Positions 13,638-19,094 of a stretch of DNA of 64,000 nt are shown in pieces (positions within the stretch are counted from its first letter, which is position 1; the number at the start of each line of letters is the position of its first letter). The stretch is from assembly GCF_900114455.1 (NCBI RefSeq), contig NZ_FOTC01000001.1, forward strand, positions 248,001-312,000, read 5' to 3'. The position numbers and the translations under genes are program-made. Under the pieces are notes generated by a model that worked only from the letters and a program-made list of their open reading frames with translations, was not told the origin of the DNA and did not search any database. This DNA is from Halogranum rubrum. Lineage in GTDB: Archaea; Halobacteriota; Halobacteria; Halobacteriales; Haloferacaceae.

Positions 13638-15344
<1,707 letters not shown>

Positions 15345-16002: not shown

Positions 16003-16824
16003 TCACTCGGTTTCGCGCCAGCGACGGAGCAGCGCGTCCGCCTCCGAGAGCGACACCGGCAGGTCCTCGCCGTCGACACCGTCGAGGTCACCGAAGAGGC
16101 GGACCAGCGTCGGCGGGCGGAGTCCGGCGGCACGCAACCGTTCGCGGTCGGTCAGAATCTCTCTGGGCGTGCCGTCGGCGACGACTGTCCCACTCGGACC
16201 GAGGAGACAGACGCGGTCTGCGACCGCTGGCACGAGGTCCGGGTCGGGCGTGGCGACCACCGTCGTCACACCCTCACTCGCCAACTCGTCGAGTGCATCG
16301 AGGATGCGACGGCGGTTCTGCGCGTCGAGGTGGCTCACCGGTTCGTCGAGCAACAGGGCCTCGGGGTCCAGCGAGAGCGCGGCGGCGAACGCGGCACGGC
16401 GTTTCTCGCCACCGCTCAGACGGAACGGCGGCCGGTCGAGGAGCGATTCGAGGTCGAACCGCGCTGCCAACGTCGCCACTCGCTCGTCGACTTCGTTCGC
16501 GGGGAGACGAAGTTGTCGCGGGCCGTACGCCAAGTCCTCGCGGACGGTCGGGTTGAACAGGTAGTCGTCGGCGTCTTGCAGGAGGACGCTGAGTCGGTCT
16601 CGAACCACGTCGGCGTCGCGTTCGCCGAACCACCGGACCGTCCCCTCACTCGGGTCCAGTAGACCGCCGAGCAGTTGCAGAAGGGTGCTCTTCCCCGCGC
16701 CGTTCGCTCCGAGGAGGGCGACACGGGTGCCGGGTTCGATTCTGAGGTCGACGCCGTCGACGGCGACTGTGCCGTCCGGATGGCGGTAGGTCACGTCGCG
16801 GGCGTCGACGACGGGGTCGCTCAC
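16003..16824 (-). CDS. nikO: Nickel ECF transporter ATPase NikO
   Basis: From the GTG at 16824 the product is 273 residues long. It has Walker [10 protein letters not shown] (~37), the Q-loop, the ABC signature [15 protein letters not shown] (~135) and Walker [13 protein letters not shown]. This is the CbiO/NikO class of ECF transporter ATPase, energising metal import with NikM, NikN and NikQ. The GTG lies in the 4-bp overlap with nikQ; longer upstream sequence in this frame is antisense of nikQ. Adjacent nikR and urease genes favour nickel over cobalt. Confidence 0.93.
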
Positions 16825-17645
16825 GCGACTACCACCATCCCGACGATGGCGAGAAGAGCCAACGTTGCGAAGGCGACGTTCGACCGCCGACGAGACACGG
16901 TGCGGTGCGCTCCGCCGACGTCGATTGCTCGCCGGCCACCGCCGCGGGCGGCGGCGGCCATCTGCACGCGTTCGCTCCGTTCGAGCGTCCGGACGAAGAA
17001 CGTCCCGAGCAGCGTCCCCGACGCTCGCCACGACTCGCGGAGCGAGACGCGTCGGTCGTGAACCGTTCGCGCGCGACGGGCGACGACGAGTCGCTGCAGT
17101 TCGGCGAAGAAGACGAGGAGATACCGGTAGGTGACGGCAACGATACCGACCAGCAGCGTCGGCACTCGAAGGCGACGGAGTGCGGCCAGCAGGTCCGAAA
17201 AGCGGGTCGTCAGGAGGACGAGCGAGAGCAGTGCGACGCACGCGGCGACGCGGGCGACGAAGGTAGCGACGTAGGCGGCACCCGCTTCGGTCGGCGAGAG
17301 CGGTCCCAGTGTCAGCACCGGGGTTCCGGGCGTGAGGACGAGTCGGGGGGCGACGACGACGAACGCCAGCACTGGCGGAAGCCACACGCGAGCGACGAGT
17401 ACGCGCAGCGGAATCGACGAGAGGCGCGCCAGTCCGAACGCGGCGACGAGAAGCGCGAGCAGCGTCAGTAGGTCACGGGTCGCGACGGCAGTCACGACGA
17501 CGGCGGTGACGCCGACGAGTTTCAGCGTCGGGTCGACTCGCTGGAGAAAGCCATCGCGAGCGGGGTACGACTCGCCGAGGAGGAGGAGACGGGCGTGTGC
17601 ACCGAGTTCGGCAGTCGTTCGGTCGAGCACGCGGCCTCGCGTCAT
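16821..17645 (-). CDS. nikQ: Nickel ECF transporter transmembrane protein NikQ
   Basis: The 274-residue CbiQ/NikQ-type T component has six to seven hydrophobic helices. It also has the coupling-helix motif ERSERVQMAAAARGG near residue 225, which contacts the ATPase. It starts at ATG 17645, 4 bp into the end of nikN, and overlaps nikO by 4 bp. Role: couples ATP hydrolysis by NikO to metal release by NikM. Confidence 0.9.
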   Translation of the reverse strand: MTRGRVLDRTTAELGAHARLLLLGESYPARDGFLQRVDPTLKLVGVTAVVVTAVATRDLLTLLALLVAAFGLARLSSIPLRVLVARVWLPPVLAFVVVAPRLVLTPGTPVLTLGPLSPTEAGAAYVATFVARVAACVALLSLVLLTTRFSDLLAALRRLRVPTLLVGIVAVTYRYLLVFFAELQRLVVARRARTVHDRRVSLRESWRASGTLLGTFFVRTLERSERVQMAAAARGGGRRAIDVGGAHRTVSRRRSNVAFATLALLAIVGMVVVA

Positions 17646-17953
17646 CCGTCGAGGAGACGGCCGAGTCCGAGCGTCACGCCGAGCGTGAGGGCGGTTCCGA
17701 CCAGTCCGGCGACGAACGTCCCGAGGTGGGGATGGACGCCGGGGACGCCGTAGTCGGGGAGGAGTCCGGCGTTGAGCGTCGTCGCGTGTTCCGCTGCACC
17801 GGTCGCTTCGGCGGCGTTTTCGAGGGGTTCCGCGTAGCCGACTGCGCCGGCGGCCCATCCGAAGGCGGGGGCGAGCACGACGAGGACGAAGACGAAGACC
17901 AGCGCGCGCCGGACCCACGGTTTGGCGAGGAGTCCGTCGGCGTGTTCGCTCAT
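17642..17953 (-). CDS. nikN: PDGLE-domain nickel transporter subunit NikN
   Basis: A 103-residue protein with two membrane helices (~17-37 and ~80-98) and a soluble loop containing the LPDYGVPGV version of the PDGLE motif. Such proteins replace CbiN in archaeal and bacterial Ni/Co ECF systems. ATG 17953 overlaps the nikM stop by 4 bp; the end overlaps nikQ by 4 bp, so all four subunits are translated from one mRNA. Confidence 0.85.
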   Translation of the reverse strand: MSEHADGLLAKPWVRRALVFVFVLVVLAPAFGWAAGAVGYAEPLENAAEATGAAEHATTLNAGLLPDYGVPGVHPHLGTFVAGLVGTALTLGVTLGLGRLLDG

Positions 17954-18591
17954 GCGGCCGCCTCCGGTTCGGTCGTGGTCGCGAGGACGTCGGGGCGTGC
18001 CTGCACGATGTAACGGTAGACGACGAGCGTGATGGCACCCTCCACGAGGCCCAAGAGGAGGTGGCCGACACCCATGATGGTCACCGTCGTTCCGAGTTGG
18101 TACGCGAACGTCGAGGAGAGACCGAGTTCGACGGCGGCGGCGAGCGCACCGAGCGTGATACCCAGCCATCCAGCCGCGAAGACGGCGACCGACTCGTCGA
18201 CGCCACGAAGTGCGCGGTAGATGGCGTATCCGGCGTACACCTCGACGACGGCCATGTTGAGCACGTTCGCACCGATGGCCGTGAGGCCGCCGTCACCGAA
18301 GACGAGACTCTGGATGATGACGACCGAGGCCACAGAGAGCGCGCCGAGATGTGGACCGAGGACGATGGCCGCGAACGCGCCGCCGACGAAGTGTGCGCTC
18401 GTCCCGCCCGGTATCGGCCAGTTGAGCATCTGTGCAGCGAATATCCCTGCGGAGACGACGCCCAGCAGTGGGACACGAACGTCGTCGAGCGTCGACTCCG
18501 CTCGGCGAGCGGCCAGCGCGAGGACAGCACCCGCGAGGACGAAACAGCCTGCGGCGATGGGTACGTCGAGAAACCCGTCCGGAATGTGCAT
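17950..18591 (-). CDS. nikM: Nickel-binding substrate-specific component NikM
   Basis: The 213-residue integral membrane protein starts MHIPDGFLD. The first His and the amino terminus are the metal ligands in the CbiM/NikM family, so the annotated start is certain. Further ligands are expected in GGTSAHFVGG (~65). It is the specificity subunit of the importer. It is the first gene of the nikMNQO operon and is divergent from nikR across a 92-bp gap that contains a NikR-type operator. Confidence 0.95.
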   Translation of the reverse strand: MHIPDGFLDVPIAAGCFVLAGAVLALAARRAESTLDDVRVPLLGVVSAGIFAAQMLNWPIPGGTSAHFVGGAFAAIVLGPHLGALSVASVVIIQSLVFGDGGLTAIGANVLNMAVVEVYAGYAIYRALRGVDESVAVFAAGWLGITLGALAAAVELGLSSTFAYQLGTTVTIMGVGHLLLGLVEGAITLVVYRYIVQARPDVLATTTEPEAAA

Positions 18592-18615: not shown

Positions 18616-18643
18616 GTAATACTTTGCCCATATACAATATTAC
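18616..18643. promoter_or_regulatory. Candidate NikR operator between nikM and nikR
   Basis: GTAATA (18616-18621) and TATTAC (18638-18643) form a perfect inverted repeat with a 16-bp spacer. Escherichia coli NikR binds GTATGA-N16-TCATAC, so half-site length, spacing and total size (28 bp) are identical and four of six bases agree. The left half overlaps the likely nikM TATA box, so bound nickel-NikR would block nikM transcription; the site can also serve autoregulation of nikR, whose ATG is 41 bp away. Confidence 0.75.
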
Positions 18644-18683
18644 CAAACGAAGGTTGATGCGTGGACCTCTCGAAGGCGACAGT

Positions 18684-19094
18684 ATGACCGACGACTTCGA
18701 CCGTATCAGCCTCACCCTCCCGAGTGAGATGGTCGGCCGCCTGGACGCTATCGTCGACGACTGGGAATACGACAGTCGTTCGAAGGCGATTCGCGACGCG
18801 CTCAGAGATTTCTTCGTCACGTACGAGTGGGAGAACGAGGCAGGTGGGAGACATTACGGCACCATCGTCGTCACTCACGACCACCACGCCGACGGTATCG
18901 CCGACCGCCTCCAGCAGGTCCAACACGAGTTTGCGGACGCAATCATCTCCGTCCAGCATATCCACCTCTCACACGACCGCTGCATGGAGACGTTGGCCGT
19001 CGACGGCGAGACGGCCGTCATCACCGAACTGTCGAATCGACTCCGGTCGATGCGGGGCGTTCGGCAGGTGAAAGTCGTCGTCGTCGACGAGTGA
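18684..19094 (+). CDS. nikR: Nickel-responsive repressor NikR
   Basis: The 136-residue protein has an N-terminal ribbon-helix-helix (RISLTLPSEMVGRLDAIVDD, residues ~7-50) and a C-terminal ACT-type metal domain. The four nickel ligands of E. coli NikR are conserved: His81, His92, His94 and Cys100 in the QHEFADAIISVQHIHLSHDRC region. A tetramer with nickel should bind the 28-bp inverted repeat upstream and shut off nikMNQO. The ATG at 18684 gives the family length; the longer frame upstream is antisense to nikM. Confidence 0.95.
   Translation: MTDDFDRISLTLPSEMVGRLDAIVDDWEYDSRSKAIRDALRDFFVTYEWENEAGGRHYGTIVVTHDHHADGIADRLQQVQHEFADAIISVQHIHLSHDRCMETLAVDGETAVITELSNRLRSMRGVRQVKVVVVDE

Follow-up and report, generated by a model that had tools for sequence, protein, structure and literature searches.

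The 64,000-nucleotide stretch of Halogranum rubrum DNA analysed here (the window) carries a 28-bp inverted repeat between nikM and nikR, and the locus raises the question of whether this repeat is the operator of NikR and, if so, how it would act on an archaeal promoter. On the sequence evidence below, we consider it very probable that the adjacent NikR uses the repeat as its operator and that the repeat confers nickel-dependent repression by occlusion of the TATA region; binding, nickel dependence, exclusion of TBP and autoregulation are the steps that we infer. The support that was computed consists of the repeat itself, its conservation, its fixed position in the promoter, its link to the presence of NikR and its independence of the position of nikR.

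The 28-mer, GTAATACTTTGCCCATATACAATATTAC, has outer hexamers GTAATA and TATTAC that form a perfect inverted repeat around N16. Both this repeat and its location between nikM and nikR had been claimed in the original prediction; the letters of the window bear out the former, and the domain matches of both flanking genes the latter. GTAATA-N16-TATTAC has a single match in the window, occupies one place only in the host genome (4,566,676 bases) and appeared in none of 100 dinucleotide shuffles, and this genome-wide uniqueness together with the shuffles rules out a chance repeat. The conserved unit among relatives is a 7-mer half-site, and the symmetric consensus built on it, RTAWTAY-N14-RTAWTAY (28 bp), is likewise found at one place in the genome, with no match for a backward control. 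The seventh pair of the window repeat is asymmetric because its right half shows ATATTAC instead of the GTAWTAC of relatives. The site ends 24 nt from nikM on the minus strand and 40 nt from nikR on the plus strand. It has the two half-sites, the repeat length of 27–28 bp and the roughly 21 bp between half-sites of NikR operators, and it is located at the promoter of a nickel uptake gene.

Next to the site, the nikR product combines an N-terminal ribbon-helix-helix (RHH_1, PF01402, E 1.1e-07) with a C-terminal nickel-binding domain (NikR_C, PF08753, E 3.4e-26), both above cut-off. The pattern H-x10-H-x-H-x5-C, whose nickel ligands we take to be those of E. coli NikR, is kept in all 65 orthologues described below, the window's included. 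The ribbon motif R-x-S/T-x-T, presumably the DNA-reading residues, reads R-x-S-x-T in 65/65 by eye (a script scored 63, its matches in the other two starting at the wrong R). The regulator had been called bacterial-type, which the comparison does not support: it is nearer to the NikR of Pyrococcus horikoshii, its closest solved relative (96 bits, E 1.8e-26), than to that of E. coli (58 bits). Its nearest named relative found is in Halogranum amylolyticum, where NikR is 90% identical. Two in-frame ATGs, 27 nt apart (18657–18686), could start nikR and both also occur in H. amylolyticum; the first would suit a leaderless start from a TATA box inside the operator.

On the other side, the order nikM-nikN-nikQ-nikO continues into ureB and ureC and then into accessory genes whose domains are of the UreG, UreD and UreF types. 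Genes for CbiM/NikM, a small N component, CbiQ and an ATPase thus stand together, linked to urease and nikR, and these neighbours point to nickel as the metal of NikMNQO. A non-coding stretch lies between nikO and ureB, and transcription from nikMNQO may read through into the ure genes; a second operator for urease was rejected, as no further site within two mismatches occurs across the window.

Table 1. Predicted operator and flanking genes in the window
Feature	Position	Strand	Remarks
Predicted NikR operator, GTAATAC-N14-ATATTAC, 28 bp	18616..18643	.	Unique in genome; same place and geometry in 51/51 divergent nikM/nikR loci
Left half-site, likely nikM TATA region	18616..18622	-	Reads AAAGTATTAC on the nikM strand, 24 nt before the start codon; TATA identity putative
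Right half-site	18637..18643	+	One mismatch to GTAWTAC; second A/T peak, seen only where NikR is present
ATATAC in spacer, possible nikR TATA box if the start is ATG 18657	18630..18635	+	Putative, from sequence reading; spacing as in Halogranum amylolyticum
nikR, nickel-responsive ribbon-helix-helix regulator	18684..19094	+	Domain matches; alternative in-frame ATG 18657
nikM, substrate-specific component of ECF nickel importer	17950..18591	-	CbiM PF01891, E 7.2e-61
nikN, PDGLE domain	17642..17953	-	Domain match
nikQ, CbiQ family	16821..17594	-	Domain match; start codon not fixed
nikO, ABC ATPase	16003..16827	-	Domain match; start codon not fixed
ureC, urease alpha subunit, likely nickel consumer	13638..15344	-	No NikR site found before ureC

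Conservation was assessed in 392 genomes of the host's order, with E <= 1e-30 as the cut-off for a true NikR. Orthologues were found in 65 of them. Of these, 47 matched at E <= 1e-50 and the other 18 in the range 1e-31 to 1e-37, and the next-best match lay at E 1.3e-20. Upstream regions were taken from all 65; the counts of 65, 51 and 12 given here cover genomes of the order sample, and loci from named species were kept apart. Wherever nikM diverges from nikR (51/51 loci), the symmetric consensus was present, 24–29 nt before the nikM start. The profile of these loci consists of two conserved half-sites and a variable spacer, except for a run of T that directly adjoins the left half (84, 100 and 90% T). 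The expectation that relatives would share the repeat was therefore satisfied in every one of these intergenic regions, but in a form that differs from the exact GTAATA-N16-TATTAC, which occurred in 3 of 43 loci of a smaller set (the host genome twice and H. amylolyticum once). Outside the order sample, eight of nine haloarchaeal loci from named species had the site; it was missing from Halomicroarcula rubra (L004) and also from a Bathyarchaeota locus (L011).

The spacing is specific as well. For this test, 59 loci gave 56 distinct intergenic sequences, three named loci having been merged with identical ones and L001 omitted as a copy of L012. The strict form, RTAATAC-N14-GTAWTAY, was matched in all 14 positions at spacer 14 by 51 of the 56, and among the other spacers from 4 to 30 full matches occurred only at 13 (13 sequences); none of 2240 dinucleotide shuffles reached 13 of 14 positions. 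The spacer-13 matches fit a third half-site 13 nt beyond the second. This element, GTATTAC, stands exactly 13 nt past the second half-site towards nikR in 15 of the 51 loci, all from genus g39 (L024–L026, L028, L031–L035, L037, L039–L042 and L045), and perhaps serves a second NikR tetramer or the control of nikR. Two details of the half-sites count against an operator. The right half is GTAATAC in many genomes where a true inverted repeat needs GTATTAC, which makes a direct repeat that can be accepted only in view of the near self-complementarity of GTAWTAC. In the window, the right half departs from the strict consensus by one mismatch.

Haloarchaeal transcripts are mostly leaderless. Read along the nikM strand, the left half is GTATTAY. 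It coincides with an A/T peak roughly between -34 and -27 relative to the start codon, which, with mostly leaderless transcripts, puts it at the TATA position. The proposal that the left half overlies the likely nikM promoter thus holds for its place in 51/51 loci, with a putative TATA box as the element concerned. When nickel is plentiful, a nickel-loaded NikR tetramer would occupy both half-sites, one RHH dimer on each, with the dimers 21 bp, or two helical turns, apart. As the left half lies on the nikM TATA region, bound NikR should exclude TBP there and would thereby switch nikMNQO off. The likely nikR TATA box of the host genome falls within the site, too: the spacer's ATATAC has the distance from the first ATG that a TATA box would have, so the site probably controls nikR as well, and nikR would repress itself.

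The same A/T-rich letters could in principle be two promoters and nothing else, with the nikM TATA box on the left, the nikR TATA box on the right and a symmetry that comes from TATA sequence. The left half is indeed at the TATA position, and the Halogranum nikR start is close enough to the right half. In relatives, however, the right half lies 35–147 nt from nikR, which is not TATA distance, although its conservation roughly equals that of the left half; the spacer is fixed at 14; and the motif also occurs in front of unrelated transporters. Moreover, in 12 nikM promoters from genomes that lack NikR the TATA peak is present, at -30 to -25, but the second A/T peak, near -54, is absent and was seen at NikR loci only. 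We therefore hold the two-promoter explanation to be very unlikely.

If the repeat is instead read by NikR, it should follow NikR across genomes. Scanning the 392 genomes with the strict motif gave matches in 75, namely 59 of the 65 with NikR and 16 of the 327 without (odds ratio 191, Fisher p 7e-48, with shared ancestry ignored). One of the 59, G023, is counted for a chance match elsewhere, its real site by nikR having reversed half-sites. Six NikR genomes lack a strict match: the host (one mismatch), G010 and G054 (half-sites reversed, symmetric consensus present), G174 (one further mismatch), and G351 and G247, in which no site was found. The 16 matches in NikR-less genomes are near background, since a backward control pattern matched in 10 of the 392. 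Fifteen of these 16 places were opened and their predicted proteins read, and none precedes a recognizable nickel transporter; the sixteenth, in G094, has a 28-mer identical to that of G237. The matches in G106 (L152) and G237 (L155) lie 6 and 25 nt before a gene resembling PLP-dependent enzymes of sulfur amino acid metabolism and are probably TATA coincidences. Conversely, the site was found in none of the 12 genomes in which a nikM homologue (E 1e-49 to 1e-66) occurs without a true NikR, the best score being 10 of 14; these homologues may in part be cobalt transporters.

The site could instead be read by another metalloregulator that travels with nikMNQO, for example of the DtxR, Fur or a different RHH type. 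The host genome does encode two more RHH-type proteins related to NikR (E 1e-15 to 1e-17), and such proteins occur in most haloarchaea. But the motif follows the true NikR clade and not these RHH relatives, as the 16/327 count without true NikR illustrates, and its geometry is that of NikR operators, which leaves another reader with very little probability. In G129 and G170, where about 239 and 236 kb separate nikM from nikR, the site is found 26 and 29 nt before nikM, and no site was found in front of nikR. Because the site stays with nikM, it belongs to the transporter and not to nikR. This, and a location in the core promoter at which a bound protein would obstruct TBP, make it very unlikely that NikR binds here to activate or to regulate nikR only, although Helicobacter pylori NikR, in the part of the literature covered, either activates or represses.

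The operator reading gains and loses from a survey of the genes that follow the site. A metal transporter gene is preceded by a consensus site in 62 of the 65 NikR genomes and by a site with a mismatch in one more, and two have none. In 16 genomes the site precedes a transporter other than nikM, in one of them with a mismatch (Pfam and NCBIfam were run on representative transporter genes). Ten genomes (G112, G010, G109, G277, G262, G221, G319, G198, G195 and G143) have it 24–32 nt upstream of a PF01497 binding-protein gene, and these genes (L080–L083, L139–L142, L059 and L062; Pfam run on 4 of 10) are candidate nickel ABC importers. A NicT permease gene of G175 has it at a distance of 29 nt, a NicO-like gene of G003 (whose Pfam match fell below the cut-off) at 26 nt and a NikB-like permease gene of G315 at 58 nt; in G054, G023 and G174 it lies 37–39 nt upstream of ZnuA-type genes, with one mismatch in G174. 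The ZnuA-type genes (L066, L067 and L071; Pfam on L066 and L071) diverge from nikR and have reversed half-sites; their products are candidate nickel importers, or zinc importers under NikR control. Four of these transporter sites are 37–58 nt from the start, versus 24–32 elsewhere, which counts against an operator. So do the two exceptions to the rule that the site is kept in genomes with NikR and absent from those without: G351 and G247 have a close NikR (74 and 73%) and no recognizable site nearby. In both (L171, L172), nikR follows a membrane protein gene in a likely operon; by eye this protein resembles the NicO-like protein of G003, and a piece of it from L171 had no Pfam match.

Beyond the order, but within the phylum, family f25 has RTAATA-N16-TATTAC 18–20 nt before nikR in G426, G417 and G408. 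These repeats share the geometry and nearly the hexamers of the haloarchaeal site, but they stand before nikR and not nikM, and their seventh position is not conserved. By reading, nikR in G426 is followed by a CbiQ-like frame and then an ABC ATPase frame. In a fourth genome, G399, the exact repeat forms part of a perfect palindrome of 28 bp, GTAATACTTTTACATGTAAAAGTATTAC, some 250 nt upstream of nikM, and a one-mismatch version of it precedes nikR. Since each genome has 9–39 loose matches, the evidence from f25 is the nearness to nikR or nikM and not the match. A NikR search outside the order gave 26 loci (L181–L206), none with the 7-mer form; L181 alone has the exact GTAATA repeat within the 300 bases before the NikR match. 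Other families have different repeats. At many of these loci the upstream stretch looks coding and not like a promoter, so that absence there means little. Taken further, these observations tip us slightly towards a broader reading, in which haloarchaeal NikR would recognize the nearly self-complementary GTAWTAC in either orientation and a single 28-bp module, older than the haloarchaea, would stand at the promoters of five or more unrelated uptake systems (NikMNQO, binding-protein transporters of the PF01497 and ZnuA types, NicT and NicO-like permeases, and NikB-type ABC).

To our knowledge, few archaeal metal regulons have been defined at base resolution. The predicted site offers a testable operator and a consensus that predicts the haloarchaeal NikR regulon with little background, and it is a candidate example of a TATA region that incorporates an operator. 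The motif would also be a way to recognize nickel importers in families whose metal cannot be told from sequence; if the module reading is true, it names new nickel importers, ZnuA-type 'zinc' transporters included.

How does this site compare with known NikR systems? A literature search of partial coverage, which does not establish priority, returned no haloarchaeal NikR operator. A 2009 survey, in which NikR served as an aid in finding transporters, counts both NikMNQO and urease in Halobacteriales; the passages covered here give no archaeal operator (PMC2667541). For the protein, the closest solved structure is that of the archaeal P. horikoshii NikR (PDB 2bj1 and four more entries). For the DNA, the original prediction had pointed to E. 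coli, whose NikR binds GTATGA-N16-TCATAC at nikABCDE (PMC7055735). The length of 28 bp, the 6-N16-6 (or 7-N14-7) layout and the place at a nickel importer promoter are indeed alike. The half-sites differ (GTATGA versus GTAATA in the window and RTAWTAY among relatives), as do the importer (NikABCDE versus NikMNQO) and the promoter (bacterial versus TBP/TFB), so that a strictly E. coli-like sequence is ruled out and geometry alone is in common. Even this geometry is not particular to E. coli, because NikR repeats measure 27–28 bp in enterobacteria and delta-proteobacteria alike, with half-sites that vary between clades (Rodionov et al., 2004, PMC545781). The half-site GTATGA is characteristic of the E. 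coli site, not of the family. Another parallel is the delta-proteobacterial signal GTGTTAC-N13/14-GTAACAC (PMC545781), which also spans 27–28 bp, precedes nikMNQO-type operons, came from comparative genomics and has some half-sites reversed. It is bacterial, its half-site is GTGTTAC and its spacer is 13 or 14, versus 14 here. The predicted operator is thus ordinary for the NikR family in its geometry and specific to its clade in its half-site.
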